Shown: one piece after another, positions 29,308 to 63,056 of the stretch
How positions within the stretch are numbered: the first letter of the stretch is position 1
Layout of the letters: the number at the start of each line of letters is the position of its first letter
NCBI RefSeq assembly: GCF_947623445.1
Contig: NC_135243.1
Coordinates: 3,722,501 to 3,786,500 of the forward strand
DNA length: 64,000 nucleotides
Source: Clavelina lepadiformis
Taxonomy: Eukaryota; Chordata; Ascidiacea; Aplousobranchia; Clavelinidae
Direction of reading: 5' to 3'
The notes under the pieces: generated by a model
The model's input: only the letters and a program-made list of their open reading frames with translations
What the model was told of the DNA's origin: nothing
Database searches by the model: none
Program-made: the position numbers and the translations under genes

Positions 29308-30662
29308 TCACACTTTTCGAAGTGCCTGGAGATACAGCAATCCGTATTCCACCCCACATCGACATTGGTTGCTAGAACCTGCAGAACCACACACAACCAA
29401 GGCAGCTGTAAAACAACGCTGCGTTATTAGAGTAAACTAAAAATACAAAATTGTAGAAGGGCAAACCTCACTCATAATATCACAATAGCTACCATGGCTT
29501 CATCATACCGCATTTACTTGATTATGAAGCGTCTTTGATTAAAATCGTGAAAGTGATGCCTGTATTTTGATCTCACACCAACCATACATGTACTATTTCA
29601 AGCTACACTTAGTTGTGGAATATTGATTCAAATATAGACTTCTTTACAGACTTGCGAATAAATTGTCGTTAGGAAACTGTGAAAATACGTCATCAAATCA
29701 GCGGTCTTTTCCACAACTTTAAAACACCCGCAGTCTACGATTTGGAAGTGTGAAAACATGGTCTAATCAGCAAAACAAACCCGAAGAATTTAAAAAAACT
29801 TACAACAAATACCCGCTAATTGTTAGCAGAATTAGCAGGAAATTAAGTGTTGTGTCTACGGTATTGGCCAAACAACGAGAAAATAGGAATCGCCATAGAT
29901 TAGAAAGCGCACAAAACGTTAAAGAACAGTATAACTTTCTGTTCGAATAAACGCGGTATGATGTCACTGACATGATTGTGGTTAAACAATTAAAGCGCAT
30001 AGATATCTTACATTTGGGGTTCTTTGCAAAAGCGAGAGAACCTGTCGCCCCCTCGAAAGTGATTACGTTGTTCATAATCGCTGCAGGTCGGAATTCCTCC
30101 CCACGAAGCCGAAAGCTCGAACCATTGGAATTGAGGACGGTGAAAAGTTCGAAAATCTGGTTGAAAAATTTCAAAGTTAAATCATATTATTGAACAATAA
30201 ACTACATAATCTTAAATCATAAAATTGTCATAGATTTCCATAAGCGTAAATTTACAGTAGTTCAGAATAAACGGAAACCCGGCTTAATAGGATGTTTGTG
30301 TTAGATTTGTTCCAAAAGATTTTGACCAAATTTAACGGTGAGATTTCTGGATTTCTTTGATACATTAGAATGAGGTTAGTCAAAGGCTTGTTTTTCAATA
30401 TCACATAAGCCGACAAACTGGTTCTTTTTTCATCCAATCGTCTCCATATATCGCAAAATATAGATCTCCAAAATGCCCAAACAAGACAATTTCTCAAAAG
30501 TGAACAAACATCTACATTTTCCTATTTTCTTACTGAAAGTTTTTTATATCTTTCCGACGCCAAATCCTCCCCCCAGATGTTTCCCGCTGTCCTTATATAA
30601 ACATAAACAATTGAATGGCCTCCAAGGTTTCTAATTTCCGAGCACAAACCGTTCCAAGACAT
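29308..30662 (-). CDS. Profilin-like protein, cluster copy A
   Basis: A 123-residue protein from three exons: 30534-30662, 30012-30156 and 29308-29405 (phases 0 and 1). It starts MSWNGLC, the classic profilin MSW start, and continues with a Tyr-x-Tyr-Ile block and NIWGED, aligning with the profilin SVWA turn. Exon 2 gives SNGSSFRLRGEEF, aligning with the central strands. Exon 3 gives ALVVCGS and ends with QCRCGVEYGLLYLQAL, aligning with the C-terminal helix GQCxxVVExLGDYL of Dictyostelium- and plant-type profilins. Trp3 and the second Trp, which form the polyproline-binding surface in known profilins, are both kept. It is nearest to GPAA1 and among the most canonical copies. Actin or polyproline binding is inferred, not shown. 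Confidence 0.82.
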
Positions 30663-31036
30663 TTTAGTGGTTTAAAAAAATTAATTTTTCTCATGTACAA
30701 ATATATATAAAAACTTTTATCAAGGAAACTGAACTTTTGTGCATAAAATCTCGTCTTAACGGCCTAAAAGAATTAACATTTAACTGGCTATATATAACAA
30801 GAAACAAATTTTTAAACAAAAAACAGGTAAAACAATTGTTCGCCCAAAACATCAACTTTTTCCATTTGTTCTATTTTCTATTATGTATATGTCTTTATAC
30901 TTTAACAAAGTTTTTCTTATAACGAAAGCGACAATAAAACTAAGTTAAACTAAGATAAACTTTATTTACCCAACTAACAAAAAAAATCTCAATATGCTGC
31001 TAGAACGGAGACTCAACAAATTTGCTCATAGTCTCA
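30663..31036. other. Upstream region of copy A
   Basis: About 370 bases of AT-rich sequence between the copy A ATG and its conserved upstream block. No gene. Confidence 0.4.
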
Positions 31037-31160
31037 CATTTAACTACTGTAAAAGCTGTCCACACTGCAACTGACAATAAAAAAGCCGAGTATCACACAA
31101 GCTTTACTTGTTTAATTAACATAGGGACAGTTACCCGCTTTACACGTTGATTAATTACTC
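31037..31160 (-). promoter_or_regulatory. Conserved upstream block of copy A
   Basis: Contains CAACTGACAA, then AATTAAC and the strongest part ACCCGCTTTACACGTTGATT. The same order of motifs occurs upstream of copies B, C, E, F, H and J and inverted before copy I. It may be a promoter or enhancer, or the promoter-proximal part of a 5' UTR intron. Confidence 0.55.
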
Positions 31161-31417
31161 TGAAAACACACACTGCAAACACGTAAAAGCAAATGGACAA
31201 CAGTCAATACATTTAAATCAACTTTTTGATGTTAAGAATTGTAACTTTTATTTCTGTCTTCTTAATTTTAATTCAAGATGCTCTTTGGAAGGTATGACTG
31301 CTCTCAGCAATAATAAGTTACGACACCTCGCTTTCACAAAAACAAAATTTGTCTTTTTTAACGAACATTATCAAATTCATTTTGTTTTATTCCGGTGATT
31401 CCAAAATTTTTCTTTTA

Positions 31418-31602
31418 CATTCATCATATTTGAAAGCTTAACGATAGAAAACTCCAGCAATCTCGGAGCAGCAAGTTTACCGCTATTGCAATCGTTATCA
31501 TATAGATCATGAATTCACTTTTAGTTTTACCGTTTCTCTTTTCTTGGTATACCAGTCGAAATATTAATCCAAACCAGGTAAGGGTGGTGAGTTAGTTTAT
31601 TT
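31418..31602 (+). pseudogene. Degenerate copy of GPAA1 exon 10 and its donor
   Basis: About 185 bases align with GPAA1 exon 10 (27910-28065) and the start of its following intron: shared runs include CCGCTATTGC, ATCATGAATT, CTTTTCTTGGTA and GAGTTAGT after the donor. It has an internal gap and many substitutions and cannot code. No other GPAA1 exons lie in order around it, so it is an isolated duplicated fragment on the same strand as GPAA1. Confidence 0.72.
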
Positions 31603-32965
31603 ACTTTTGACAATTCGTTGGTGTTACATGTATTATATCTGTGTTAGAAAGCAAACAAAAAGACTTGAACAGTTCTATATACTTACACTGAAAACGAACA
31701 ACAGGTGCTACAGCACTTGCATGATCGGAAAATTGAATAATCGCGTCTGGTCTGTTGCTTTTTGTTATTCGCTCATTTCAACATCATTTTGTTTGGCATG
31801 CTGTTATTTGTTTGGCATGCTGTTATTTGTACAAATTAAAATTTATTATGTTTTGACAAACCGCAGGTTGAATTCACATCAAAAGTAACAAATGTCCATT
31901 GTTAACTTCCATTAAATTATTGCTGTATTTTCTAAGTTATTCTTTGAATAATTAATCTATAGTTAACAGTTATTACAGAGACCGGTAATATAATATTACC
32001 TGAAGCTGAAATTTGGCGAAATGTCCACGCAAACTTGCTGTCAAATATGTTACTACTCTGCTGTTCCTATAGGCACAAGTATTTTACCTGCTGCTAGTTG
32101 AATGTTTCCACGATAAAAATTGTTAAAATTTTTTTAACGTAAAATATTTTTCTAGAAATATGTCGGAGCGAATGGCTTTGTTTGAGACAGGATAACGTCA
32201 CAATTGTCTTTACCTTTTTTCTGCGCGGTGTTTCTCTACAAACTTTTGGCGGTAAAACGAAATTGTAAAATTTCAGAGAAACAGGTTGTTGAAAAACTAG
32301 TCGTTCGTTCATAATGCTGCTTATTTCACCGCTTTGCCACATGTGCCATACGTCACAAACGTTACATGTTCGTTACATTGGCAAAAAGTATTTCTTGCTC
32401 AAGCGGTGGTAATTCCTTGCCTTCCGGGTCATGTCGAAGAAAATAGTTTTCATGTTTATATTTTAATTTCATTCTTCACGCTCTTCCGCGTTCTAGTTAA
32501 TATTATTTTGAAGTTTAAACCTGATTTTGAAAAGTATAAATTTGTCCCAAGAGTTTTGACACATGAGATAACTTTCAATCTAAAGGGTAACACATATAAA
32601 AAACTGCTAGGTTGTATTTTAACGGGCTCCTAGCGGTGTTCTCCGGCTCTTTCATTTCCCAAGGAGATCAATTACCTGACTTCAAAACTTAAAAACAGCT
32701 CAATAATTTACATTTACCGATAATCATCATCATCATCTTATTATTAGTGACAAAAGTAATCTATAGTTTTATTTTGCAAGAATATAGTACACAATTTCTA
32801 CAAATATTTGCGACACCGGACGTATATAATAGAATATAGTAAGATATAGCACAGAATGTATAGTACATAGGCTATGCGGTTAATTGCCAGAATAGGTAGT
32901 AAAATTCAAAGGAATATCAGCTGATATGCGAATCCAAATACACTGCTGTGGCGAGGTTGAGAGGT
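31603..32965. other. Spacer between copies A and B
   Basis: AT-rich sequence with no supported gene. A short tandem repeat of TTGTTTGGCATGCTGTTATT lies at about 31789-31830 (two units). Confidence 0.5.
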
Positions 32966-33818
32966 TCAGATTCGTCCAGCAGTTATTAAATAGATGAGTC
33001 CGCAATCCATGGCATTTTTGCATTGGATGTAAGCACTCCCGTTAGCGCATACAATTAAAAACACTGTCGAATAAAAGTCAATAATGCTTCATTGTGACCG
33101 TTTTTAAACGAACAAACTTTTCTCAATTTCAATTACAAATTTTTCTATTAAACTACTCAAAAACGCAATTTAACAACGTATAGACATCTTACCGTTTAGG
33201 CACTGTGCGTAGGCAAGGGACCTTGTGCGACTTTCATAGTAGAAGACGCCTTTATTATGCTCCACAAGTTGATATAATTCGTTACGAAGCCGAAAGTTTG
33301 AACCATTGGAGTTTGCAATAGTGGCAATTTCGGGACCCTGGGAAAAGAAAACGATACTAAACAACTGGATATAATAGTTGAATATGATGATGTTTGCACG
33401 ATCTTTGCAATAATAAGTAAAAACAGACAGTAGCTTAAACAGAAACAAAGTTAAAACTCGTCTTGTTTTAACATACAATATCAGATTAATCTTGTTATAT
33501 GCTAGTGGTTCCAAAAATGTTACTTTCACATTCATCACATTTTGAAGTTTTACGATAAAAAAGTTCCATCAATCTCGGAGAAGCCAGCTTACCGTTATTT
33601 CGTGTTACACTCATCTATGTCGTGTTAACATGATTTAATTCACAGAATAGCTTATCTTGTAGCCTACGTTTTGATAAATTAATTACTGTAAGTCTTTCGA
33701 AGTTTGGAGACAATCGATGTTGGCCCAACACAGACACCGGTGTGCCTATAAATGCATAATCGACCAAGGGTCTTCCAGCAACATGCGCAACATGAAAGCA
33801 AACAGCATCCCAATTCAT
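32966..33818 (-). CDS. Profilin-like protein, cluster copy B
   Basis: A 124-residue protein from exons 33687-33818, 33193-33337 and 32966-33063. It begins MNWDAVCF (Trp3 kept), then VDYAFIGTPVSVLG, where the second Trp is replaced by Leu, and PNFERLT. Exon 2 reads EIATIANSNGSNFRLRNELY and GVFYYESRTRSLAYAQC. Exon 3 reads VFLIVCANGSAYIQCK and ends in a helix with GLIYL. The donor after exon 2 (GTAAGATGTCT) is the same 11 bases as in most cluster members. The start was chosen by alignment of MxW with the other copies; the frame is open 26 codons further up. Intron 1 contains a GPAA1-derived fragment. Looks intact. Confidence 0.82.
33530..33598 (+). pseudogene. Short GPAA1 exon 10 fragment in intron 1 of copy B
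   Basis: About 70 bases resemble the intron 9/exon 10 border of GPAA1 (ATCACATTTT, AGTTTTACG, then CCGTTATT). They also match the fragment at 31418-31500, including about 25 bases to its left that are not from the exon. The two fragments therefore come from one duplication event followed by a second. Confidence 0.55.
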
Positions 33819-34120
33819 TTCAACGCTCGACAAATACCGTCTTATCTTATTTAATATCTGTTTAACAATTTTTGTTCTATTGAAATTTTCTAACATGCAA
33901 AGTCGATTTTACAATATCTTTTAATTCTTTGCAAACAAATAATGAAATAATGTTTTCTAAGCAAAAAATATATTGTAAGTTGACTTCTAAAAGTTCTACG
34001 ACTTTTTCACCTATCTATAGAATATATACCTTATAATATATTCTTGTATGATTGTTTTTCGTTAACTAAGCACAAATGAGCTTAGTTAATTAAGGCTTGC
34101 ATGAGCATATCTCCAACTTA
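33819..34120. other. Upstream region of copy B
   Basis: AT-rich promoter space of 300 bases, no gene. Confidence 0.4.
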
Positions 34121-34245
34121 GCTACAAGTTGTAAATTAGCAACTGACAATCTAAAACGCAAAACAAAGCACAACAGAATACTTTACTCTAGGGGCAGTCG
34201 GGCAAGTTGCTTGTTGATCACAAGGCAAAGCGTATTCAAGGAACG
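34121..34245 (-). promoter_or_regulatory. Conserved upstream block of copy B
   Basis: Contains CTACAAGTTGTAAATTAGCA, ACTGACAA, GGCAAGTTG and the right-hand part GGCAAAGCGTATTCAAGGAA that is also present behind copies C and J. The central CACGTTGATT is reduced to TTGTTGATC. Confidence 0.5.
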
Positions 34246-34715
34246 AGTTTGCGGCAATTTTCGCACTTACCCAACCTGCTTAAGATATGCAATGAGTACG
34301 GAGATATCTACAACAACCTTGTTCGTTAAGTTATTTATCGGTATTCCGTTCTTCAGTTACCCTGGCAATTGTTTTCCTTCTTTGGAATATTGTTGTTATT
34401 TTGGCAGCAGCAAAGGCCTTTAGTATATCACAAAACAAGGGTTAGTAATGAAAAACAAGTTTAAGTTATTTACCTTAAGATGTCCATGTTTGTAATTTTT
34501 GATTTGTCAAAGGCTTGGCCAGCATTGTTTGGTTGCCTTCTTCCTTTCCTTCCAAAACCTCTTTCCATACTACTGCTGCTTTATTTACATCCAGGTTTAA
34601 CTAAGCCTCGGTTGTTATGGAGATGATTGTGATGTTACAAACTTTTCCACTGATAACTGTGGTTCGAAAAAATTTCTGCATAAACAGTTGAGCGAGATTC
34701 AGTCAGCTTTGCTTC
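34246..34715. other. Spacer before the GPAA1 exon 5 fragment
   Basis: AT-rich sequence with no supported gene; the plus-strand open frame at 34097-34423 overlaps the upstream block of copy B and has no motif. Confidence 0.4.
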
Positions 34716-34812
34716 ATTTTTTCAGGATAAGCCCTTCCCAATAATTTATACATAAAAAAATACAATGGACTGTTAAAAAAATTCGGATCTTCCTGATCTC
34801 GACGTTAGGTCT
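34716..34812 (+). pseudogene. Degenerate copy of GPAA1 exon 5
   Basis: A T-rich acceptor and TTCAGGATAAG are followed by sequence that tracks GPAA1 exon 5 (25457-25585): ATTTATA, TACAATGG, CGGATCTTCCTGATCTCG against the parental AATATGGATCTTTCTAATCTCG. It is non-coding. It lies downstream of the exon 10 fragment, so the pieces are not in gene order and do not form one decayed copy. Confidence 0.6.
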
Positions 34813-35158
34813 GTCAAGAAAGTTTCAAACAACAAATTTTCAGATTTCTATGAAATATTAAACCGGCTAAACCAATCAGAGAGCTTGCTTTTTATGGTTC
34901 ATTTTTCCCTACATATCGTTTTGTATTGTTCTTCGATCACAATTTAATATTCTATGAATAAAAAGGCATCAATTGTATTCCGAAATAGCAAACTTTTTAT
35001 TATTTTAAGTGTTTTCACACAACGATTTCCATCTATAGTTAACGGTTATGACAAAGAAATGTTCAGTTAATGTCATCTTCTCTGCATTGATGTTGTCTGA
35101 ACCGTGTTAACCAAATTTTAAAGTAAAGTAAGAAACAGCATGTAGTTTGGCACTCTTA
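34813..35158. other. Spacer
   Basis: AT-rich, nothing recognised. Confidence 0.4.
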
Positions 35159-35326
35159 AAGTTAACTTTATATTTTTTTGACACGAGCTTTCGCAAGCAT
35201 AAGCTTGCTTCCTCAAGTGTACTGTGAAATGGCCAATTTCACAGCCATTTGGCTATTTCACAGTACACCTGAAGAAGCAAGCTTATTCTTCCGAAAGCTC
35301 GTGTCGACAAATATAAAGTTAACCTA
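35159..35326. mobile_element. Fold-back element (long hairpin)
   Basis: Two arms of about 75 bases in inverted orientation, 35159-35234 and 35251-35326, separated by about 16 bases. Both arms contain TTTCACAGTACAC, GAAGCAAGCTTAT, GAAAGCTCGTGTC and end in ATATAAAGTTAAC. The arms differ at only a few positions. It codes for nothing. This is a fold-back MITE or the remnant of a palindromic duplication; no clear target duplication is visible. Confidence 0.75.
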
Positions 35327-36400
35327 TACTGCATTGTAATTACAACTTGAAACAACATCTGCAGGTGTTACTTTGCCAACAATGATGTTGCTACTGTAGG
35401 CTAATTGCTGCAAAGCTCAAATAGCGTCAAAGAGCCTTGGTTAATTTTACTAAAGCGTGTGTGTTGCCATGCCCCGGCATTGTCACATTGTCACAATTGT
35501 CGTTGTAAAATGTCACAATCATTGTTACAATTGTCATTATAATCCGTTTGTATGTCTTTCTAAGACAACTTTACTTTGTCTTATAGCTTTTTTCTTTACT
35601 TTATCAGTTATCACCTAAGGACGGCTTAAATGTGCCATGAAACAAAAGCTTATAAATGCAGAATTAAAACCAGAAACATTTACAACACTAAATCTGTTTT
35701 TCCCGACCCTCAAACTTTTAACACTTTCACAACATTTTGTGATTTTGTTGATTTTTGATGACCAATTCTAGATGAGCAGCAACTGTCCAAGAAAGTTTCT
35801 TTGTCCTTCTGTACAGTGCAACATATTACGTTTGTTTGCACAAGCACTCAGAATCAAAATCACTCCATATCAGCAGAAGGTATATTTAAACACAATAATA
35901 CGGAGAGTCGTATTGAAGTATGCCCGGTTAATTTTGAAGACATTCCAACAGGAGCCTATAATATCAATTGCTTTATCATGTGTTAACTTTATTGGAATGA
36001 AATGGCGGCGTTATTTTTGCATGACATGTTTTCCGAGCTTTAGATGTCGCAACAATATCAGTGGCCTGAATTTGAGATTGCAGAATCACTTACTAGGCCT
36101 ACTTTATACATTCTCTGATCGGTAGCAACAAAGAGAATCATAAACATTTTATTTGGCGAGAACATTGTATAAAATTCTACTTATGCGTAAATATGCATCT
36201 ACGTGTGCAGCTCCGGACGGCCTGGAGACAACTGATACACACTCACATATAGCGCATACACAAAAATAACATATGGCATAACTTGGAAACAAGCGACATA
36301 ATGTAAGTATCCGCTAGATTTCATACGCTATATATTGTCAGAATATATAGCAGTTAAGGTGTGTAGATGTGTGTCTGTGACCATGAACATATCGCTGTGA
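35327..36400. other. Spacer between hairpin and copy C
   Basis: AT-rich, with a short CACAATTGTC repeat near 35487-35540. The 117-codon open frame at 35772-36125 has no recognisable motif and I do not support it as a gene. Confidence 0.45.
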
Positions 36401-37418
36401 TCACAACCTGCTGACCATTTCAAGATAAGTCATACCGCGATCCACTGATCTCTTGCATTGGAAATGGGCTTGTCCGTGAGCGCAAACAATCAAGAACACT
36501 GCCAAAGGAAAATACAACAGTGAATAATGAAATGCATTTAAATGAACACACTTAACTCAGTGCCAGTGTCAATGTCACAATGGCTCACATGCCTTTGTTT
36601 TAAGCTAGTTAAACAATGCGACTAAGCCATGCATAGACATCTTACAATTGGCGCACTGTCCACAAGCAAGGAACCTTGTCGGACTCTGGTAGTAGAAAAC
36701 TCCATTATTGGCTTCCACGATTCTGTAAACTTCATTTCGAAACTCGAAGTCTGAACCATAGGAGTTTACGATGATGGCAATTTCCGCACTCTTGATTTAA
36801 AAAATTGAAAAGGAAATTAAATGATTGAAATCAGTTGCGTATGTTTCATACATGTCACGTAAATAAAAATGAGGAAACGCACTTACAAACTTATAAACTT
36901 TGCATGAGAAACAAATGATATTAAAAGCATCAGGTGATGAGCTCTTAAAATGACACGGGGCTTAGCAGTCTGCGTTGAATAAGTGACGTTTCGCACAAAA
37001 TAAAACCACACTACAAAATAAAAATGCAGCAAACTCGCTTTAATCAAAATGAGGATATTGCAAAAGTGCAATTGATTAATTTTGCTCGATCTCTCTCCCA
37101 CATTATTCAGTAACATTCAAAAATGGCGAGTTAAGAAAGGTCTCAGGTTACTTTGCAATAACAAGAAAAGTCAACTGAGTTAGTCAACAACGGAAAAGAT
37201 TGACTGATCGGTAACTACTATTCTACTGAATCAACAGCAAATAACTACAACAAGAAAAACTGTTTAAAAAAAATTAAAAAAACAATTACACTAAGTCTTC
37301 TGAAATTTTCCCCCAACCAATATTCTCCCAACACTGCCAACGGTGTGCCCATGAAAGCGTAGTCGACCAAAGGACTCCCTTTTTCCACAACTTGAAAGCA
37401 AACAGTATTCCAATCCAT
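36401..37418 (-). CDS. Profilin-like protein, cluster copy C
   Basis: A 123-residue protein from exons 37290-37418, 36646-36790 and 36401-36498. It starts MDWNTVCFQVV (Trp3 kept), followed by VDYAFMGTPLAVLGEYW; the second Trp position is Leu. Exon 2 reads SAEIAIIVNSYGSDFEFRNE and GVFYYQSPTRFLACGQC. Exon 3 reads LFLIVCAHGQAHFQCKRSVD and then RGMTYLEM, a good match to the profilin C-terminal helix. It is closest to copies B and D by eye (shared CF-x-V-V and Phe/Leu-Leu-Ile-Val-Cys-Ala). Intact. Confidence 0.82.
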
Positions 37419-37795
37419 TTCAGTGTTCTACAAAGACCGTCGCACCTTTTTCAAGATATACTTGTTTTTTCTTTTCAATTTTACGTTAAAGTGAGCGAAA
37501 TCTGCAAAAAGTGTAAAGGAAATGTTTTCAAAGCTGAAATTACAAACTACAAGTTCACTACAGCGGTTGCTTACATACTACACACTACATACTACAAGGT
37601 TTTCGTCGATAATATAACGTCTACTACTCTTTTATTTGCTTACACACTTCTTTTTCCTTGCAAATGCTTTTCTGTTAATTAATCAACAATATGCTAACTG
37701 AGCTTTGTTTAAATAAAAACGAAAAAAATATTTAACAAAACATCTATATATTACCAGGACAGCAGATAAACATAACCTATAGAGTTATTTATAAT
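37419..37795. other. Upstream region of copy C
   Basis: AT-rich promoter space with a short direct repeat of ACTACACACTACATACTAC near 37578. No gene. Confidence 0.4.
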
Positions 37796-37955
37796 TTAAC
37801 TACAAGCTGAAAAGTAGCCAACGAATCAACCAAAGTTATAAAGCAGTAATTGACATAAAACGCTAATCGTGGTAACGAAAAGTAATCAACGCTCCGAGCG
37901 GTCTCGAACGTTCCTTGTCGATTACCAAAACAAAGCGCAGCCAAGGAATAAAAGG
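37796..37955 (-). promoter_or_regulatory. Conserved upstream block of copy C
   Basis: Contains TTTAACTACAAGCTGAAAAG, CGCTAATC, AATCAACGCTCCGAGC and CGATTACCAAAACAAAGCGC. The order and spacing match the blocks of copies E and J. Confidence 0.5.
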
Positions 37956-39178: not shown

Positions 39179-39498
39179 TGTTATAATCTTTTCCCTCGGA
39201 CTCAGAAAAGTCTTTGCACGACCTAAATCCAGCCAAGCTTTCTCACCGTTCGAACCCTGGTTACTAAACTAGCCTTTGCGAAAGTTCTGATCGCCACACA
39301 TGTTTCATTTTGTTTTATTTTTTTGTATAGAATTTCCCAAATAAAGAACTGTCCACCGGGTCCACTGAACAGTAACAAGTGTTGTTAATGTCTTACCCAA
39401 GGGCGTTACAACGGTATGGCACCACCGGGTATCGAACACGGAACACAAGCAACATTTTTTTTGCGAGGCCAGCGCTCGAACCACTCAGCTACCGTGCC
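39179..39498 (-). mobile_element. tRNA-derived SINE, near full length
   Basis: On the minus strand it begins GGCACGGTAGCTGAGTGGTT (box A like) and about 50 bases later has GTGTTCGATACCC (box B), giving a Ser/Leu-type tRNA head. A core follows with AACGCCCTTGGGTAAGAC, which resembles the conserved core of widespread deuterostome SINEs, and then a tail with GGTTCGAAC and GGTCGTGCAAAGAC. Fragments of the same family lie at 8340-8470 and 25821-25880. Confidence 0.72.
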
Positions 39499-40028: not shown

Positions 40029-41663
40029 TCACATTTCTTTATTCTTCTCAAGAAACGCTATTCCTCGATTCATCGCTCTTCTGCACTCGATGTAAGCACG
40101 TTTGTGAGCCCACACAATCAGGAATGCTGCCTCCAAAAAAAGAACAACGCATTATGCTACGGGATATAAACGAACAAATTTTTATTATTTAGCAACCTCG
40201 TTTAAGAATTAAATGAAGCAAATTTCTTCGCAATCCTATAACATCTTAAACTTTATTTTCGCAAACTACTTAAAAAGGCGATTGAGCAATGCATAGACAT
40301 CTTACAATTGCAGGTTGCCGCATAAGAAAGGGAACTTGTAGAACTCTCGTAGTAGAAAATGCCTTTATTATTTTCCACAAGTTGGTATACTTGGTCACGA
40401 AACGGAAAGCTCGCTCCATTGGAGTTAATGATGGTAACGATTTCTGCAGTCTAATATCAAAGCGAAATTTCAGTGCACAATATTCATTTGTTTTACTCTT
40501 ACGTAATATAAATACAATAAAAAATCACATATTTTTAAAATCTAAAGTAAGATATGTGATGTCTTTTAAATACTTTTTGACAATGTCTCAAATCCACTTA
40601 AAGCGAAATATTTTGAGCCCAGTTTATTGTATCGGATAAATGAATAGATGACGATTGATGTTAAATCTTAAAGAAAACCAGTTGGATTTATTAAACTATT
40701 GTGGCTGCACCAAGATAACATGTTAGCGTAAGTTTAATGCTTTTAATGCTATAGTAACATTTATCTTTCGTTTTATCTAAATTTAACTTACAATGAACTT
40801 AAATACAATCGACTTTGGCAAACCCATTCTCTTAACCTCACCGCCTAGCTATAACCACGGGTTGCGTGACCTACTCACGGTAAAATAGTCACTTTTTATG
40901 CTAATATTTCAAATATTTTACAACCATAATAAATAAAACAAGCATAGATGGTTAGTCTAGATTATTTTACGTGGTGAAACGTTTGGTTTTGACAGTGTAA
41001 TTCTAATACTTATTCGTTATTCATGCGGTCGACACACTCTAAACCAGTGATTCCCAAACTGTGTGCCGCGAACCTTTTTAGAATTTTGGAAAAGAACTAT
41101 ATAAATATTTAAAATATGGCATGCAGACAAGCATATGCGACTTAAAAGCGTTCTAACTGCTTCAATAGCTGATAAATAAGCACATGATAAATAACACGTG
41201 AAAGTAAATTTTTTAAAGCAACTTTTCTTCTCTTGTAAGTGTGCCGCTAGCGTTTTATAACTTTTCTAGTGTGCCACAAGCTGAAAAAGTTTGGGAACCA
41301 CTGCTCTAAACCACAGCAAAATTTTATTTATATGTAAAATTCATTCTATGAAATCTTACATATAAATTTTCGCAATCTACATTCAATACTTTTATCATTC
41401 ATTCACATGTAATCTACATCTACTATACTGTACAACTGTGTACTATATGCAAAGTTAGACATAGAAAAGAAAAAATAACGATAACTCAATTTTTTAACGA
41501 TATCATAGTAATCCATATCTTTATCTTTTTTTACTTTCAACCCTGTGAAACTGGGCGTCATACAAAATTCTCCCCACACAGCTGCCGGTGTCCCAATAAA
41601 TGCGTAATGGATCAAATGACATTCCCCTTGTACAACGTCAAAGCAAAACGTATTCCAATCCAT
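40029..41663 (-). CDS. Profilin-like protein, cluster copy D
   Basis: A 123-residue protein from exons 41535-41663, 40306-40450 and 40029-40126. It starts MDWNTFCFDVV, then IHYAFIGTPAAVWGEF with both profilin Trp positions kept. Exon 2 reads EIVTIINSNGASFPFRDQVY and GIFYYESSTSSLSYAATC. Exon 3 reads SFLIVWAHKRAYIECRRAMN and GIAFLEK. Intron 1 is unusually long (1084 bases) and contains the 259-bp hAT MITE at 41045-41303. Splice signals on both sides are intact, so the gene still looks functional. Confidence 0.82.
41045..41303. mobile_element. hAT-type MITE, 259 bp, in intron 1 of copy D
   Basis: Ends CAGTGATTCCCAAACTGTG and AAGTTTGGGAACCACTG are inverted repeats. The exact 8-bp duplication CTCTAAAC flanks it (41037-41044 and 41304-41311). 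Non-coding inside. Related at its ends to the 4991 and 42560 elements. Confidence 0.92.
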
Positions 41664-43019: not shown

Positions 43020-43027
43020 ATCATAAC

Positions 43028-50266: not shown

Positions 50267-51236
50267 TTAGATTCGTCGATATACGAAACGTTCAACATCA
50301 GTGTTGGTGATATATGGCAGCCCGTATTCAATTGCTCTTCGGCATTCGTCATAAGAACCTACACAGCCGCTGACCACCAAGACAACTGTTCAATAAAGAA
50401 GCAAGACACTGCGTTAGTGCCGGAATTGAATCGGACTTTTCCGGACACTGCCGGACACTGCCGGACACTGCCGGACACTGCCGGAATTTAATCGTATAAA
50501 ATTCACTCACAACGCCACCGCCATGACTTCGATGCCTTCATTATTACTTCCAATATCAAATGTTCGCAAACATCTTACGATTGGGAGTTATTCCATAAGC
50601 AATAGATCTTGTTGTACCCTCGTAGTTATGTACGCAATTTATTAACTCCACAAACACGTATTCTTCACCACGAAACACAAAATCTGCACCATTTGCATTT
50701 CGGATAGTCATCACTTCGCGAGTCTTAAAATAAAATTAAAAAAATGATTTGATGAATACTGTTTTTATTGAGTATATTTGTAGCTACTGTATTGCATGAA
50801 TTAAACAAGTTTATGGGATTCAAAATTAAATTGTTTTTACAAAACTTATCAGATCACGTAACTTTAACTTTTATCTCAACTTAAGTTCACTGAATACTCA
50901 TTGTTTAAATTTCTTGCCATTAACATAAAAGCATGGTCCAATATTGCTTATGAAATCAGTAAACGATATATCACAACATACCGAAACCTGGCAATAATCT
51001 AAACAGATGAATAACTTGAAAAGAGAATCATTGTGTTTAACTATTTTAGTGCATTAAATTATGAAAAAGGGAATCAATAAAGTTTGACATTTACATAAAA
51101 CACTTACTGAAAGCCTTGTGAAGTTTCCTAACTTCCTACTGTCTCCCCACATTCTATCCCTTGACCCCACGTAGGCATAATCAACCTTTGAACCCCCGTT
51201 CAACAAGACTCCGGCGCAAAATCTACTCCAATTCAT
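50267..51236 (-). CDS. Profilin-like protein, cluster copy E
   Basis: A 130-residue protein from exons 51108-51236, 50579-50723 and 50267-50385. It starts MNWSRFCAGVLLNGG, then VDYAYVGSRDRMWGDSRK (both Trp positions kept) and GNFTRLS. Exon 2 reads TREVMTIRNANGADFVFRGE and EYVFVEL. Exon 3 reads LVLVVSGCVGSYDECRRAIE and GLPYI, then continues seven residues beyond most siblings (ERFVYRRI end). The 10-bp minisatellite at 50441-50485 lies in intron 2. The start was placed by alignment with the other copies. Intact. Confidence 0.82.
50441..50485. repeat. 10-bp minisatellite in intron 2 of copy E
   Basis: Four exact head-to-tail units of CCGGACACTG followed by half a unit. The flanks on both sides read CCGGAATT(G/T)AATCG, so the expansion split a short duplicated flank. 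Confidence 0.9.
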
Positions 51237-51540: not shown

Positions 51541-51655
51541 ATTAACTACAAGCTGTAAACTAGGAAAAGACAACGAAAAACGCTGAGTAACAAGCATACA
51601 AGCAATTAACGCTTCGAGCAATCTCCGATGTTGCGCGTTAATTTCCTTGAAGAAA
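51541..51655 (-). promoter_or_regulatory. Conserved upstream block of copy E
   Basis: Contains ATTAACTACAAGCTGTAAAC, GACAACGAAAAACGCT, AAGCAATTAACGCTTCGAGC and a degenerate GCGCGTTAATTTCC in place of CACGTTGATTACC. Confidence 0.5.
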
Positions 51656-52531: not shown

Positions 52532-52539
52532 CTATAGAA

Positions 52540-52890: not shown

Positions 52891-52898
52891 CTATAGAA

Positions 52899-54252: not shown

Positions 54253-55089
54253 TTACACGTCATAGGCCCTGAGGTACAACAATCCGTAATCAACCGACCT
54301 TTTGCATTGCTCCATGGAATCTACAGAGCCCCAAACCACCAATACATCTATATAATAAAACAAAAACAAAACACTCAATTTTAAATTCCTGCATTTAAAA
54401 GCATAAAACTCACAATGCCACGATTGAAATTGAACGACTTATTAATGGCTTTACGCCACCTACTTCTAATATGCAATATTGCAATACGTAGACATCTTAC
54501 AATTCAAGGTATTTCCACAGGCGAGCGACCGAGTCCGACTTCGATAAATGCAGGAGCCGTTGTGATACTCCTGGCACCTGTATTCCTCCCCTCGAAGTTG
54601 GAAGCTTAAACCACCCGAATAATATATCGTGGCCACTTCGGCAACCTGGACCAGAATTACATATCGATTATAATAATCAATGAAATCGAGACGTTTCAAT
54701 GTCCGTGAACATCTCGTTTAGATAAATGAGATATGGGTGTAGACTTAGAATCAGCAAATGCGTTTTAAAGCTACCTTCAAATATTATAACACAAAGTGTT
54801 TGATCGTTTGCATTTAGGTAAAATCGTTTGCAAGATTTAAAACCAGAAAACTTTTCCTCACCATCTAAGCTTCGTTCATAACACTACATAAGGGCATTTA
54901 AAGGATAAAAATGAAACAACAGAATTTAATAGAAATTTTACCTTTACATGGAATACTCACCGCCAGACTTGGGATGTTACGAAACTTTTTACTCTCGCCA
55001 CACACGCTTTCCCTGGTTCCGGAATAGACATAGTCGACCTTGGGGTGTCCCCTTAATACGACTACGGCACAAAAGCTATCCCAAAACAT
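54253..55089 (-). CDS. Profilin-like protein, cluster copy F
   Basis: A 122-residue protein from exons 54961-55089, 54501-54645 and 54253-54347. It starts MFWDSFCAVVV (Trp3 kept), then VDYVYSGTRESVCGESKKF with Cys at the second Trp position. Exon 2 reads VAEVATIYYSGGLSFQLRGE and the Cys-rich YRCQEYHNGSCIYRSRTR. Exon 3 reads YVLVVWGSVDSMEQCKRSVD and YGLLYLRAYDV, one of the clearest matches to the profilin C-terminal helix. It faces copy G head to head with 886 bases between the two ATGs. Confidence 0.82.
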
Positions 55090-55396
55090 GTGAATACTAT
55101 GAACTATGATACCTTTTTTAAGCTTTACTTTTACTTTATATAAATTAATCACAAAAATAAATAAAAAAAAAATTTCTAAACAAAATGTAGGTGTTTAAAA
55201 GTTGACCGTTAAATGATTTTCCCTTCTTTGTTGTTTGCTAATTATTTTAAAACGTTTCCACCTTTCCATTCGTTACATCAGCTTGATAACCTGAACTTAA
55301 TTTACCTTAAAATTCAAAATATATCTGACAAAAACAACTTTTCTTAACATGAATGTTACACAGCAAGCCTACCTATCTCTTATAGTCGCAACAACA

Positions 55397-55508
55397 ACTT
55401 AATTAATTTGTTAGTAACTGGGAAAGAAATACGCCAAGCATGGTCCTAGGTAAAGCAATTAAGGCTGCCAGCGATCACACGCTTTGCACGTTGATTGGAA
55501 CGACTGAA
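55397..55508 (-). promoter_or_regulatory. Conserved upstream block of copy F
   Basis: Contains AAAGCAATTAAGGCTGCCAG, then CACACGCTTTGCACGTTGAT. It lies between the divergent copies F and G and is in the F orientation; no separate block in the G orientation is visible, so it might serve both. Confidence 0.55.
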
Positions 55509-55975
55509 ACGCGCTTATTCAAAAACAAAAATGTCAGTGAGAAATGTCGAAGATTTCATAAATTTATTTGACTTAAACTACTGACGTGCATCGCGCCGGG
55601 CTGCCCGCAGCATCATGTTCTTCCCTGTACCAGGATCAGCGTCTGTCGTTGTCAATTGTTGTAGTTCACAATTCGTGTCGTAGTTAAGTAAGGTATCAGC
55701 GTATTTGTTGTAATGTTTGTCAAGAGAATTATTCTGGCTTGAAATTGTTGCACCATAAATTTTGCTTGAAAGTTTTCAAGTTTGTTTGATATTTTTTTCT
55801 AAGTCGTTGAATTATAACAAAAGATGTAGAGAGCATAAACATATGCATAAATGCATGTAAATAAGAGGAAGAGTTATAAACAATTTTGACAACTTGCAAT
55901 TAGTATCTTTCGCTTAGAAATTTTGTTTTACTTTTTCCTACTATTTGAAGAAAGTGGTATTGTTAGAACACTGAA
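55509..55975. other. Upstream region of copy G
   Basis: Divergent promoter space between copies F and G. No gene. Confidence 0.4.
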
Positions 55976-56665
55976 ATGAATTGGAGTAATTTTTGCGATG
56001 AAGTTATAAAACACGGAGGTTTACATGTCGAATATGCTTATCTACAAAACAGAGATAAGATTTTGGGAGAAAAAAGAAAGTACGGGAAATTTCCATATCT
56101 TACAGTAAGTATTTTTAGCAAATATAACAAGAGCATTGTTAATTTATTATTATAGTTTCGTGTTTTGTTTAGGCTTCTTGAGACGTTTCTCAAATTAATT
56201 TCAGAAATGGACCCCAAATATGTTTAATCTAACTTATATGTAAACGCATTTTGTCATTTTAGCTTTTTTCTTTAATTTCACTTTGATATTTTTCAATCAG
56301 TTTTCCGAAGCGTCCATTATTGTCAGAAATTTGATTGGTTCAAACTTTCAGTTGCGTGATGAAAGATACAAATTATGGGAGATCAATGGCGAGGTATTCA
56401 CTTACGTGAGCCCAACAAGGTGCATTGTGTACGGAGCACACTCCACATGTAAGGGATTTATGAATTGCTACAGAGTGATCCTTTCTAAGTGTTTATTTAA
56501 TCTAAGATAACTGTATAGAGTCAAGTCATCGGTGCGTTATGAGTGACCGCTTAAATGCAATCATTGATTCAAGGTGTTTTGACTTTTCATTGGACAGTTT
56601 TCCTAATCGTATGTGGCATTTCCACTCCAACTCCTTTAAGTCAGTGTCAAAAAGCGGTCGCTTAA
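55976..56665 (+). CDS. Profilin-like protein, cluster copy G, C-terminally short
   Basis: A plus-strand copy with exons 55976-56104, 56301-56448 and 56598-56665, giving 114 residues. It starts MNWSNFCDEVIKHGG (Trp3 kept), then VEYAYLQNRDKILGEK; the second Trp is Leu. Exon 2 is one codon longer than usual and reads IGSNFQLRDERYKLWEI. Exon 3 reads FFLIVCGISTPTPLSQCQKA and then meets TAA at 56663-56665 just after QCQKAVA; sibling copies continue with GLxYL. In-frame sequence after the stop still resembles the lost helix, so the stop looks recent. Profilin C-terminal helix residues contribute to polyproline binding, so function is doubtful. It could be an early pseudogene. Confidence 0.7.
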
Positions 56666-57550
56666 GGGCTGAAGCGCCTCAAGGAATTGTGATCCTGCTA
56701 CTTTGGTGCAAGAATGTATTCAGTACAATGAAAACCTAATCATTGTTCAAGAAAAATAAAGAGACATTGCTACACATTCATATTTCGATGCAGTGTTGAC
56801 ACAGTCTATAGGCAAAAGACATTAAGTCAGGCACACTTAACCGGTCATCCCCCGAAGACATTTCTCTGGTCTATTTAGTTCAGCATCAAGTTAAAAAACC
56901 GAATAATTTGATAATTTATATAGCTTCTTTTCGAAATGCAAACTAATCGGCAAAAATTTTGTAGTAAAGGAAACAACAGAATAATGTTCGAGTAAAATAC
57001 GATACGACAATTCAACCAAATAAAAGATTACAAAACCTGTTTTATTTTATTTTCTTTTTCTCATTTGTATGTCCTTATCCAACCACCCGACCTACATAGG
57101 TGTCGGGGCATGAACGAACAGCCACTGTGGGTAGTGCTGTTTATTTAAATTGCGAAATTGCGTACGATGTATTTCGTGAGCAACATGGAGCAAGCAGGGA
57201 GAAGCATGAACATGAACAAATTGGATATTTTGAACAAATTATCTCAAAAAAAGGTTAACAAGAACTGTCATTATAGCAAGAATATTTTACATAAAAAAAC
57301 GTAAAAATTGTTTAATTCTATCATTCAACCAGAAGCGTTAAAGCACTTTTATTTTGATAACGTTTGCATTTTATCAGTGGTTTAGTTTAAGGTTGACTTT
57401 CTCATTGTGCTTTATATAGACGAACAAGCGTATCCCGTAATGGAAAAATGAATGATTGTACAGAAAAGACGTTACAACATGTTTACAATACGTTAAAACA
57501 GAAGCCACAGATTGCAAGAAGATGACCAAATATTTTTACTTTTTTTTGAT
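56666..57550. other. Spacer between tail-to-tail copies G and H
   Basis: AT-rich sequence with no supported gene. Confidence 0.45.
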
Positions 57551-58339
57551 TTAAGACATTCCAAGACTACTTTTCCAGGTCTGGACGCGTGGTAGTGCAT
57601 AGCGTACTGCTTCTTGACATTGTTCTAAAGAACACAATGGGCCACTTGCAATCACGATACCTGTCGAATAAACCAGAGAAAAACGTGACAGTACTGTGTA
57701 TGTGGCATTGTAAGCTTTTACTGTATGTCTTCATTTCAAACTATCCTTAAAAATGCTGAGTTAAACAATTATTAGACATCTTACTTCTGGGTTGAGTGAG
57801 ATTTACCCCGAAAACGAGAAATCTTGACAGACTTTCAAAAATGAATTGGTCGTCTTCTTTCTTGATAAATTCGAATTGATGGTCGGAAATCTTGAAATTT
57901 AAACCATTCGCCCGAATAAGGATTTCAGCTTCGGAAAACTAGTTTAAAAACGGCGAAATAAAATTAAAAAGACTTAAAAAATTTTAAACTACAAATTGTA
58001 GATACAAAATTGTTAGAAGTATAAAGCATACTTGTAAGACACATTACTTTGCAATTAAAGGAAACAACAACAAACAACTAGCAACAACAAACAACTAGCA
58101 ACAACAAACAACTAGCAACAACAAACAACTAGCAACAACCTAAATTAACCGACTGAATCCACCAAAGGGACTACAAAAATTTAATTCTTAGATAATTTAC
58201 TTACAGAAAAGTCTTTATAAAAACCGGGAAACCACCCGCATTCTCCTCTGATGCCATCCTCTTTATGCGCATAGACATAATTGACATAATGACCAGCTTT
58301 CTTTACAACTTCAACGCAAAATTCATCCAACCCCATCAT
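57551..58339 (-). CDS. Profilin-like protein, cluster copy H
   Basis: Exons 58205-58339, 57785-57938 and 57551-57660. Two adjacent ATGs (58339 and 58336) are possible; alignment with siblings favours the second, giving 131 residues. It starts MGLDEFCVEVV, so Trp3 is replaced by Leu. Then come VNYVYAHKEDGIRGECGWFP, with a shifted Trp, and a longer exon 2 (IRANGLNFKIS, FESLSRFLVFG). Exon 3 reads SIVIASGPLCSLEQCQEAVR and continues 15 residues past the usual end. It is the most diverged intact copy. Intron 1 contains a 17-bp minisatellite. It may have lost the polyproline/actin surface or be under relaxed constraint. Confidence 0.75.
58064..58140. repeat. 17-bp minisatellite in intron 1 of copy H
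   Basis: About four and a half head-to-tail units of GCAACAACAAACAACTA, nearly without mismatch. Confidence 0.9.
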
Positions 58340-58878
58340 GATTGAGTGTTTTCAAAGCCACTAAACCTTTCTTAATATCTATAAAAAGTTATATTTTTAG
58401 GGACGGTTAACTTCAGAACTATTTAGCCAAGAGCATTTTTTTCAAATTTACTAGTAAATATTATGGTTTAAATCATTTCCTTTTTGTATGATATTTTACT
58501 GCCTGTCATTTACTGAAGATGCCTTGTAGAGCGAAATATATATTTATAAAACATGGTTGATCAGATAACTTAACTTGGCTGAAAATTGTTTTTATTACAA
58601 CTTATTAAAGATAATAGTACAAAATAGTATATGTTTATAACACAATTCCATCATTTGTACATTTTCTACGAAAATCTATCTACAAAATTCCTGTTTTAAT
58701 TTTGAACTTTGTACATTTATAGTTGTGGCGGTAAGCTAACAACTAAACGGTTGACCTTAACTTCATTCAATTCATTAAAAAGTCAAGATAGTACCAACAA
58801 ATGCCAAATTCTTTCTGAAGCACTAACATCATCAACCTGCTAATCATTGACTTAAATCAGTAAGATGAGAACCAAACC
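58340..58878. other. Upstream region of copy H
   Basis: AT-rich promoter space of about 540 bases, longer than for other copies. No gene. Confidence 0.4.
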
Positions 58879-58990
58879 TGGTTACAACTAATGCATTCGA
58901 CAACCAAAGACGCTAAGCATCGCAGACTAAAGTAATCTTCGCTGAGTAGAGCCAGCGTCGCACGTTGATTAATTAAAACAAGATACACTG
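58879..58990 (-). promoter_or_regulatory. Conserved upstream block of copy H
   Basis: Contains GACAACCAAAGACGCTAAGC, then GCCAGCGTCGCACGTTGATT and AATTAAAACAAG. It matches the right half of the blocks of copies A and F. Confidence 0.5.
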
Positions 58991-59586
58991 AAAGGAAAGA
59001 TGCGTTACGGCAAGGTAAGTTACAGATCCACAGACGCACAGATTCTGATATTTACTAATGACAAATAAGTTATTGACGAATGATAACATGTCATCAGCCG
59101 GCTACCTCAATGATCGAACGCATGCAACTATAGAAGCACTTAACGTTACACTAAACAAGAGATTCTTGATAACTGATAGCAGCACCGATCGACCATATTT
59201 TAGCTATGCAGCACAACACATATGAAGCTAGCCCTGGTCAGTGAACAACAAAACATGCAATAACATAAGAGGGAAATAGTCCAGTGCTTTCTAATGAATT
59301 TACAAAATTTTCAAACAACGAAAGTTAGTATCTTTCAACTTTTTGCCCATTCAATGCGACTAAAGGTGATATCAAATAACAGTACATACTATGACGTGGC
59401 GTTCCTTGATAGGTTCATGCGACGCGAATAATACGGTTCAAACAATGGTTGAAGCAATTGGTTGAGATGAGCATGCAAGGAATTTTTGCCTGGATTGTCG
59501 CGAACTGACTACGTGGTGATAATGTTTGATCCCATGTTGGCCATCCATTTCGTTGCACGTGTCAATTTTATTCTAAGTGTATAATA
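58991..59586. other. Spacer between head-to-head copies H and I
   Basis: No gene is supported in this stretch. Confidence 0.4.
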
Positions 59587-59636
59587 CTAATCAACGTGTA
59601 AAGCGTGTAACTGCTTGCAACCTTAATTGCTTAACG
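59587..59636 (+). promoter_or_regulatory. Conserved upstream block of copy I, inverted
   Basis: Reads AATCAACGTGTAAAGCGTGT, then AACTGCTTGCAA and CCTTAATTGCTT. This is the reverse complement of the block seen before minus-strand copies, so it flips together with the gene. It lies 225 bases before the copy I ATG. Confidence 0.55.
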
Positions 59637-59860
59637 GAATTCCATACTCAGAGATTTTTTGGTCAGTTGCAAGCTCACTACGTGCTCAAGTCAATGCCAT
59701 TACCCACGACTGTTGTTGTAATTGGTTCGTGTTTGTTAGAGTTTTAGTCATAATGTGTCTTTTTATATTTTTATATTTCATTTTAATGTAATTTGAATAT
59801 ACATTTTTGATCCTATTTTAAAAAGATACTAGGTAAAGAAAAGTTTTCTGCACGACACAA

Positions 59861-60834
59861 ATGGGTTGGTTTCAATTTTGTCGCGCAGTTAAAAAAAACG
59901 GGAGGTCCATCAGTTAAATTTATCTTTATTATGCAGAAGAGAGAAGGGTTGGAAATGAATTCGCGCATAACAATTTTCCAAAATTTACAGTAAGTATAAT
60001 CAGTAGAAATGTAAATTTAACTACAAAGGTTCATTGTTATATTTTTGATTCATGTGATCCCAAATATGCGAGATAATAGTTACTGGTTTCTTATTCAGTT
60101 ACCGGTTACCAGTTAGTTAATGCTTAATTAGGTACTAGTTACTGTAGTTAAAAAGTTTGAGAGTGCTTTTTCGTAAATATGGCTCCAACTTAATCCATGA
60201 CTTTTTTCTTTTAAATTGTCGTCGAGTGCGTGTAAGATCCACACGATATTAGCCTGTACTTTTATAACTTGTTGCATACACATTATTTTTAGTCAAAATA
60301 GTTTAATTGTTTTACACTTTAACATTAAAATAAATATGATAAAATTTTTATATGATAATGTAAGAACTATATGTTGGTTTGCTTGCACAAACGGCCAATG
60401 CAGATGTGTTTTCGTTTTCTTTGGTTTCATCAACTTTACTCTGATATTTATCAAATATTGAGATTTCAACCAACGTCAAATCTGAAGGTTCTAATTTCCA
60501 GCTCCGTGGTGTGGTATTCAATTGTGTAGAGAACTTCTGTGGTGTTTTTACTTACAAAAGTCCAACAATTTCGATTGTTCATATGAACAGCCAGGAATGT
60601 AAGATGTCTATCATGCATGAAATTTTGGATTGTGTTGGAATTACATTTATAGAGTAAAAGACATCGTAGCTTTCGAGTTAAGTTAAATCCTTTTAAATTT
60701 AGTAACTAATAAGACTTTTTTGATGTATTGAATTATTTTTACAGTTTATCTAAACTTAGTGATAGGTGGCTGCATGGGCGGACGCTCATGACATTTGTTT
60801 AAACGCGGTTAAAGCGGCATTCCCGAATCTATGA
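59861..60834 (+). pseudogene. Profilin-like cluster copy I, broken
   Basis: Three exon-like pieces at 59861-59989, about 60463-60598 and about 60745-60834 match sibling exons. Exon 1 starts MGWFQFCRAVKKNGRSIS and then has TAA at 59915-59917; the same frame continues after it as YYAEERRVGNEF and NNFPKFT to a good donor, and the exon length (129) is exactly that of the siblings. Exon 2 reads EISTNVKSEGSNFQLRGVVF but seems to lack its usual first codons at the acceptor. Exon 3 ends ADAHDICLNAVKAAFPNL, preceded by VIGGCMG in another frame, consistent with a one-base shift (90 bases instead of 89 or 92). It is a host gene copy that has decayed recently. Confidence 0.72.
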
Positions 60835-61992
60835 AGACTTTTCCACTGAAGCTTTTGTTCGTCGTTGCATTGTTTTCAAAGTTAATGTTTCGTGACACAT
60901 TTTAACGAAATAAACGATTTCTGACTTTTAGCAATAGACAAAATCGTTTACACAGTGTCTCATTGTTTCTTAAGTGAGAGAAAAATAAGTTCGCGCCCAT
61001 AAGCGAAGAAAATTCGTCAGTACTTAGTAAAGAATTCTTCAATGTCGTTTAGTGATTTGTAAGTATTCGATTGTGTGCGTTACAAACTTTTTATTTAATA
61101 ATCATTGTTGTGACGTTGAAGGAAAATCTTTCAATGATACAACGTTTACTTATTGCAATGAAACAAACAGTGTATTAAGGTAAATCTGAAATCATATGTT
61201 TTACCCGCTTTGGATATGAATGATAATGAAACCAGATTAGGTATTTGTAAAGCAGTGGTTAGCAGGCTGGTTAGATCATCCTGGCATCCACTTTATAAAG
61301 TGCGTGGAGAGAGCAGGTGATAAGAAAACCATCAAAGCAAAGGGCTGAGTTTAATTCGTTGCAATCGGCAAAAGACAGCCCCTGATGTCGATTTTAATTA
61401 GATTTTGCTTGTTTGCAACTATGGGGACGAAAGCGTAAGAAATTTTGCCGGAAAGTTTAGATGGTGTAGCGGTGGCATAGAGCCTGGTATTAAAAGATAA
61501 CTTGTTGCATAACATTCATGATAACCATGATGGTACTTATTTCAGCTTTACCGACATGCAAACGTAGCTGGTTTGATGATGTTACAGTACGTGAAATTCA
61601 TATAGAAACGTTTTGTGATTACTTGCAAACTGAAGATTATCAGTTATTGCTTTACACCAATCATGTCAAAACGCCTTTTTTTCCACCATGATTTTTATCA
61701 TCTTTATTCATCTTTAACTGTTTTGGGAGCCTTGAAGATTTTGAGTGACGTATGGGTACCAGTTAAATGTCCATTTACTTTCTTCAAGTCACACAGTTAT
61801 AATTGGTTTACTGTAAGGGCGCATATTAAGTGTCAAATTGTTTATTAAAATCAATTAAAATTGATGAATTTATGTCGAGTCAAAGGTCCATTGTAAAATA
61901 AATTGTCAGAATATGGAAAAATATTTTTATTTTTATTGATCACAATTCAACATGTAGTTTTATAACATTGAAAACGATGCAGAGATTGGTTG
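60835..61992. other. Spacer between tail-to-tail copies I and J
   Basis: No supported gene. The segments at 61255-61400 and 61460-61490 (TGGTGTAGCGGTGGCATAGA) are less AT-rich and slightly tRNA-like, but without a clear box B. Confidence 0.4.
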
Positions 61993-63056
61993 TCAAACTC
62001 CATTTGGATAAAACCACCTGAGCCAGGTTATCCCAAAATGCACCGCTCTTTGACATTGATGAAAAGAACCGTTTGAGCCACATGCCGCCAAGATAACTGC
62101 CCAAATAAAAGCATCAAAAATATTGCCTAACTGATTGAATTTAAACGAACAAATTTTGTGCGCAATTATGGATTAACAATTATCCATTATGGTTTGGATG
62201 GCTTCATCTCTAACAAAAAATATATATAGAAACAGTTAGGTTCAAATATTCAGACATCTTACATTCAGGAGTAGATGCAAAAGAAAGGCACCTTGTAGGA
62301 CTCTCATAAGCGAATACACCGTCGACATGCTCAATAAATCTGTATTCCTCGCCACGAAGCACGAAGTTAGAACCTTTGGAATTTGTGATAATCGATGTTT
62401 CTGGAAGCTAGTTTATAAATATCAAAACTAAATTCAAATGATACATCGCATTTACAAAATAACTACAATCAAAATACGAATACAAAATAAATTTAAACCT
62501 TAAACACGGTTAGAAAGATTAAAAAAACTAAACTAAACTAAAATTAAAAACGGAAATACAACGTTTATCTCGCAATGTGTTCGTAAATAGCGACTCAACG
62601 TTTAAGAATATACATGTAAATAAATCTCAAACACAATGTCATATGTAACTATTAGTGGAGGGTAAAAGTTTTACTTATAACCAGGACCTATTGCGCAATA
62701 CTGCAAAGTAAGCCTTGTAATAACCAACATATAACTATATAATTGATATTATTTACAAAATTTATACAAATACTTTTATACATTTTACTTAATTACATCT
62801 GAATTTTACCTACTTTATTTTCTTACTTATTTTATTTGCTCGTACTTATTTTGTTCTTATTTTACCTACTTTATTTTACTTACTTGACACTTCGCTTACT
62901 TTTAAACAAATTAACTGAATTACTTACTGAAAAACTTGGGAAAACATTATTTGTCCGTAGCTCTCCCCATCTGATTTGCCTAGACCCTATATAGATATAA
63001 TCGACCAAAGGACCTCCGTTCATGAAAACTGTCCGGCAATATTCATCAAAAGCCAT
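61993..63056 (-). CDS. Profilin-like protein, cluster copy J
   Basis: A 125-residue protein from exons 62928-63056, 62263-62407 and 61993-62096. It starts MAFDEYCRTVFMNGG, where Trp3 is replaced by Phe and the Tyr6 position keeps Tyr, then VDYIYIGSRQIRWGEL with the second Trp kept. Exon 2 reads IITNSKGSNFVLRGEEYRFI and GVFAYESPTRCLSFA. Exon 3 reads FILAACGSNGSFHQCQRAVH and GITWLRWFYPNGV. Start by alignment; the frame is open seven codons upstream. Intact. The cluster may continue past the window end. Confidence 0.82.

Follow-up and report, generated by a model that had tools for sequence, protein, structure and literature searches.

Here, we report that ten profilin-like loci of three exons each, at positions 29308-63056 of a 64-kb window of the Clavelina lepadiformis genome (NC_135243.1, positions 3,722,501 to 3,786,500; the window is the whole stretch analysed), are part of a tandem array of about 42 loci found so far only in Clavelina. 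An earlier reading of the letters of the window (hereafter the original prediction) had proposed a cluster of ten divergent profilin-like genes. The profilin reading is supported by a predicted profilin fold, by an intron position shared with PFN1, and by bridging conventional profilin genes on C3 with the same exon plan. We assign a probability of roughly 0.65 to the identity and profilin origin of these genes taken together with an altered, rather than a conventional, profilin activity.

Gene models were rebuilt from exon profiles, with which the whole window was also searched. This recovered ten exon-2 copies between 29308 and 63056 (E 5e-15 to 3e-27), the next-best match within the window having an E-value of 0.07. 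Nine of the ten copies can be spliced at GT-AG introns into a reading frame, the introns being in phases 0 and 1 as originally predicted. The exon sizes thought to be common to all copies (about 129/145/98 nucleotides, nt) are found in most models for the first two exons and in fewer for the third: exon 1 measures 129 nt in seven of nine (132 and 135 nt in the other two), exon 2 145 nt in seven of nine (148 and 154 nt in the other two) and exon 3 98 nt in four of nine (68-119 nt in the others). Similarly, the 11-base donor GTAAGATGTCT, proposed as a shared feature, lies directly 3' of exon 2 in seven copies, with a single other occurrence in the window, and the remaining three copies deviate. 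The ten loci and the outer coordinates of the cluster are exactly as predicted, but only eight copies are intact, the exceptions being a truncated gene, G7, and a pseudogene, G9. Exon 3 of G7 contains an early stop, which leaves a protein of 114 residues that has lost much of the C-terminal helix, and this copy is probably not working. In G9, exon 1 is frameshifted, the AG acceptor of exon 2 is absent and exon 3 is degraded. The intact genes encode small proteins of about 120-130 residues, most of which start with Met-x-Trp. No signal peptide was seen by eye in the array proteins, which are therefore probably cytosolic. Among the NCBI gene models recovered by protein search, four are identical to rebuilt genes (G1, P0004; G4, P0001; G8, P0005; G10, P0002) and a fifth, P0003, contains G2 plus 26 additional N-terminal residues, with none corresponding to G3, G5, G6 or G7.

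Searching the whole assembly and counting exon-2 loci at E below 1e-3 revealed 42 loci at C4:3,537,174-3,817,583, that is, within about 280 kb of one chromosome, arranged as a block of 17 loci, about 140 kb without such a match, and a block of 25 loci. Since the window cuts through this array, the count of ten was set by the window edge; the predicted local expansion is real and about four times larger than noted. Complete GT-AG reading-frame models could be built for 34 of the 42 loci, a set that includes the truncated G7 and g3814485, whose end exons are doubtful; 24 of these models lie on the minus strand and 10 on the plus strand. Exon 2 is 145 nt long in 28 of the 34, and the donor starts with GTAAGATG in 24. 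Two copies in opposite orientation, C4:3806873 and C4:3811992 (L026), show four silent changes and no replacement change in the codons compared, a pattern left either by gene conversion or by a recent inverted duplication. On the tree, the two blocks are sorted in part (five changes of the block label; six changes for three group labels jointly versus 13.9 when shuffled), although most inner branches are weak and we therefore draw no order of duplication from them.

The sole clear array copy found elsewhere in the assembly is an intronless, stop-containing sequence at C6:19437273-19437566 (L023), which aligns over both exon junctions with the spliced coding sequence of member 3585492 of block 1 (positions 1-358, 68%). 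This sequence is a retrocopy, which means that a member of the array was at one time transcribed, and its transcript spliced, in the germ line. For the roles suggested in the original prediction (hemocyte, sperm or muscle), the retrocopy implies no more than past germline transcription of a single member.

Several weaker signals were also recorded. Matches on C4 at 1.0, 2.9, 3.0 and 3.3 Mb have E-values of 0.03-0.07, and one at C7:8897038 (E 0.22) contains two stops. At C4:20016427-20016558, a stretch resembling profilin exon 1 (43% over 46 residues, one stop, E 0.0126) may be a further gene or a relic. A short profilin-like stretch with GFYEEQIYPGQC at C7:16537643-16537738 (L031) is soon followed by a stop and was rejected as a gene; it is perhaps a decayed copy of a conventional profilin. 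The match at C1:5794354 (L032), which by eye resembles part of a protein phosphatase, was set aside as a chance match. A common promoter motif was likewise set aside: the sequence upstream of the copies has more T-rich 7- to 9-mers than random regional stretches do, which may reflect no more than base composition.

The predicted structures of the window copy G4, modelled with AlphaFold2, and of one paralogue match profilins best, at rank 1 in both Foldseek and VIA, and the profilin fold spans the whole predicted chain. This structural check of the original prediction thus came out in favour of a profilin fold for both models. Three array members are named 'Profilin' in UniRef, indicating that automatic annotation has partly recognised the family. 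Relatives outside Clavelina were not found in two profile searches of 5.8 billion proteins, in which 8/8 (E up to 1) and 7/7 (E up to 10) matches were from Clavelina; a search of this type needs shared five-residue words and very diverged relatives could escape it. The same database contains the PFN4 proteins of Ciona intestinalis, Ciona savignyi and Styela clava.

Two neighbouring conventional profilin genes on C3 bridge the array to classical profilins. The first (C3a, L034; C3:23239315-23240487; exons 129/145/104) was found with PF00235 at E up to 10 and matches it at E 5e-11; the second (L035; C3:23246512-23247300; exons 132/148/98; PF00235 E 1.5e-13) lies about 7 kb downstream and was found by using the first as query. 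Both genes match the array alignment (E 1.1e-8 and 8.1e-9, respectively) as well as classical profilins (E 1.5e-6 and 4e-7). Array hallmarks (Cys7 and WGE) and the classical [KR]KG motif occur together in both, and the first also has Arg at the place of R74. Searched against the PDB with phmmer, the first C3 protein reached plant profilins at E 0.025-0.13, under an unrelated top match, and its family assignment rests on PF00235. Introns are in phases 0 and 1 in both C3 genes, as in the array. In each, intron 2 shares its alignment column with intron 2 of the array; intron 1 does likewise in one gene and is one column off in the other.

The position of intron 2 extends to human PFN1. This protein is 140 residues long, which gives its exon 3 98 coding bases, and exon 3 of G1-G4 is also 98 bases long. 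As described in PMC4647582, c.326, the second base of codon 109, opens exon 3, which places intron 2 in phase 1. Intron 2 of the array is in phase 1 and its codon aligned to T109 of bovine PFN1 in six of six alignments of overlapping sets, so that the array shares both the intron-2 codon and its phase with human PFN1. A single PFN4 gene was found (C9:1482375-1484136, L003; NCBI 'profilin-4-like'; 78% to Ciona intestinalis, 67% to Styela clava), whose second intron precedes DNDGLIV and is placed upstream of intron 2 of the array by about a dozen residues.

In a tree including the first C3 gene, the array grouped with C3a (95/92) and by itself (82/95); in a tree with both C3 genes, a branch (99/97) separated the array from all other sequences, and the C3 genes paired (95/80). 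PFN4 was separate in both (100/100). The array thus neither groups with PFN4 in the two trees nor shares its second intron. Because C3a and some array rows are long branches, depth and order in these trees are rough. Taken together, introns, bridging genes and trees show descent of the array from a conventional three-exon animal profilin gene of the PFN1/2 line and not from PFN4. We had considered that the array replaced a lost canonical profilin, as PF00235 at default settings and single-protein queries found none, and dropped this idea after the C3 genes were found; these single-protein searches were weak controls, having missed even PFN4, which PF00235 found.

Purifying selection, also put forward as a check of the original prediction, is present but loose. 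By Nei-Gojobori counts, the proportion of replacement differences (pN) is below that of silent differences (pS) in 561 of 561 pairs, with medians of 0.436 for pN and 0.668 for pS. Many of these pairs approach saturation, and they do not constitute independent comparisons. Five of seven chosen pairs have Fisher p below 0.002 (G2/G3 8e-9; G3/G4 2.5e-6), and two young pairs fall short of significance (p 0.056 and 0.22). For the seven pairs with silent divergence (dS) below 0.6, the ratio is 0.29-0.56, except for 0 in the inverted twins, and it rises to as much as 0.93 in more diverged pairs among those listed.

Functional residues of PFN1 and PFN2a were taken from the account in PMC2694148, which places W3, Y6, W31, 133 and 139 in the poly-proline groove, and were counted over the 34 array models, the equivalents of PFN1 positions being judged by eye in the alignment. 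Where both C3 genes have Y[KR]KG, the array has forms such as YESP; at the first basic position of [KR]KG, the residue is acidic in 21/34 and basic in 1/34. The place of PFN1 R74 is acidic in 18/34 and basic in 7/34. In the proline groove, W3 is present in 25/34, an aromatic residue at position 6 in 26/34, tryptophan at the place of W31 in 12/34, and an aromatic residue or histidine at the place of 133 in 18/34 (7/9 in the window). The near-invariant C7 and C110 were also weighed as signs of a special role, an idea rejected because C7 is shared with both C3 profilins, and maize profilin and PFN4 have a cysteine aligned with C110.

Based on these residues, we propose that duplication was followed by loss of the basic actin-side motif [KR]KG, an acid often replacing its first basic residue, and that part of the poly-proline groove was kept. 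The copies would then most likely be diverged profilin adaptors binding proline-rich actin-assembly factors or other partners, with actin binding weakened or altered and with different copies serving different partners or cell types. We favour diverged adaptors over both plain profilins and a complete change of role with modest confidence; this functional step, taken by itself, is tentative, at somewhat less than even odds. 

Several observations weigh against this interpretation. With regard to identity, the predicted models share only 5-18% identity with their structural neighbours, and Ragulator subunits score at least as high as some of the profilins in the VIA lists. PF00235, against which the original prediction proposed to compare the proteins, matches none of the nine window proteins (set A1), and its cut-off is reached by no array member scanned, with five of 25 proteins in set A2 giving weak matches (E up to 10; best E 0.002). 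By sequence alone, array profiles retrieve no profilin from the PDB at E up to 10, and a weaker match to classical profilins is obtained with the window-only alignment A1 (E 2.5e-4, probability 43). With regard to descent, C3a is a long branch, and in the tree with both C3 genes the path from either of them to the other, or to classical profilins, is shorter than that to the array. With regard to function, a basic residue occupies the place aligned to PFN1 K90 in 29/34 models, so that actin binding may persist, although this alignment is uncertain since vertebrate profilins have a longer hairpin there; and the four poly-proline positions scored (139 left out) are jointly filled in just 6/34.

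The same residues bear on two other accounts of function. The copies could be working conventional profilins that evolve fast, still bind actin and poly-proline, and were amplified for dosage or tissue-specific expression. The predicted fold, the purifying selection, W3, the aromatic residue at position 6 and the basic residue at the K90-aligned place are all consistent with this, but the paralogues differ widely, the R74 place and the first residue of [KR]KG are mostly acidic, the latter motif being present in both C3 genes, and two conventional genes persist on C3; we consider this account improbable. Slightly less improbable, though still unlikely, is a neofunctionalised family without any actin work, in which the fold is reused, for example, for recognition of lipids, of gametes or in defence. 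Such a change would fit the disappearance of the basic motif from the actin side, the partly lost proline groove and the failure of the protein-database profile searches to find relatives outside Clavelina, and there is a precedent in mammalian PFN4, reported in PMC2694148 to bind phosphoinositides and neither actin nor poly-proline. However, the partly kept groove argues for some binding of proline ligands, a basic residue is common at the K90-aligned place, and C7 and C110 mark no new function given their presence in other profilins.

Decay and misidentification are far less probable. Eight of the 42 loci lack a complete model, and with G9 a pseudogene and G7 truncated the array might be regarded as mostly a graveyard of functionless relics. 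Yet 34 loci retain a full frame and splice sites despite the median pS between copies, pN is below pS in every pair, and the recent inverted twins differ by silent changes only, making this explanation very improbable. The fold could also be Roadblock/LC7-like, as in Ragulator and MglB, which have a similar alpha-beta architecture; their structural scores are lower at the top of the lists, where profilins lead the VIA results by more than 2 Z units, and we regard this possibility as refuted because the intron shared with PFN1 and the bridging C3 profilins indicate descent from profilin.

Window coordinates of the array genes are as follows, with exons 1, 2 and 3 given in that order. Spliced models on the minus strand comprise G1 (30534..30662, 30012..30156, 29308..29405), G2 (33687..33818, 33193..33337, 32966..33063), G3 (37290..37418, 36646..36790, 36401..36498) and G4 (41535..41663, 40306..40450, 40029..40126), all four with an exon 3 of 98 nt, together with G5 (51108..51236, 50579..50723, 50267..50385; exon 3 of 119 nt), G6 (54961..55089, 54501..54645, 54253..54347; exon 3 of 95 nt), G8 (58205..58339, 57785..57938, 57551..57660; exon 2 of 154 nt) and G10 (62928..63056, 62263..62407, 61993..62096; exon 3 of 104 nt). 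G7 is a spliced model on the plus strand (55976..56104, 56301..56448, 56598..56665), with an exon 2 of 148 nt and the early stop in exon 3. The pseudogene G9, also on the plus strand, was delineated by exon-profile matches to the frameshifted exon 1 remnant (59861..59989) and to exon 2 (60460..60598), whose frame is open; its exon 3 remnant (60772..60810) is a weak profile match (E 8.9) placed by its position after exon 2 and by a motif seen by eye.

Three other genes were noted in the window: an IL-17 receptor-like gene at 2376-3923 on the minus strand, with an open frame of 516 residues matching IL-17 receptor D1 (E 1e-7) and SEFIR (E 1.6e-7), and, on the plus strand, genes for a FLYWCH zinc-finger protein (17167-18930, E 6.6e-14) and a HYPK-type UBA protein (23382-23771, E 1.6e-18).

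Profilin is a core regulator of actin, usually conserved and present in few copies. The array resembles conventional profilins (PFN1/PFN2, Drosophila chickadee and the C3 genes) in its three exons, its intron phases, its predicted fold, the Met-x-Trp start and the pattern of the C-terminal helix, and has intron 2 in the same codon as PFN1 and both C3 genes. However, the C3 genes keep [KR]KG and reach PF00235, whereas the array, with about 42 loci, lacks the motif and stays below PF00235. PFN4 belongs to the same profilin family but was found as one copy, evolves slowly, has its second intron elsewhere and occupies a separate branch. Plant profilin families are conventional in sequence, unlike the tandem and strongly diverged array of Clavelina. 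They too are multigene and mostly of three exons, but those described in PMC11546416 have fewer members than the array: maize has eight genes, and for Brassica juncea 23 are reported. Mammalian testis is described in PMC2694148 as expressing at least four profilin isoforms. No such profilin expansion in tunicates was found in the open-access literature among the matches listed (one query also matched 'profiling'), nor do these matches describe a diversified set of profilin adaptors for any animal. Poly-A RNA sequencing data (ERR10908613) exist for C. lepadiformis according to its genome paper (PMC10884593).

The array is a tractable case of a housekeeping cytoskeletal protein turning into a fast-evolving family. 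A chordate with two conventional profilins, one PFN4 and about 42 diverged loci offers natural variation in actin- and proline-binding surfaces. In the most far-reaching reading, about which we are doubtful, a profilin gene became a repertoire of some forty tandem copies in which the actin side was remodelled and the scaffold kept, each copy reading a different partner. If this were true, Clavelina would possess diversified profilin-type adaptors, which might act in places such as the gametes, the blood cells or colony tissue.

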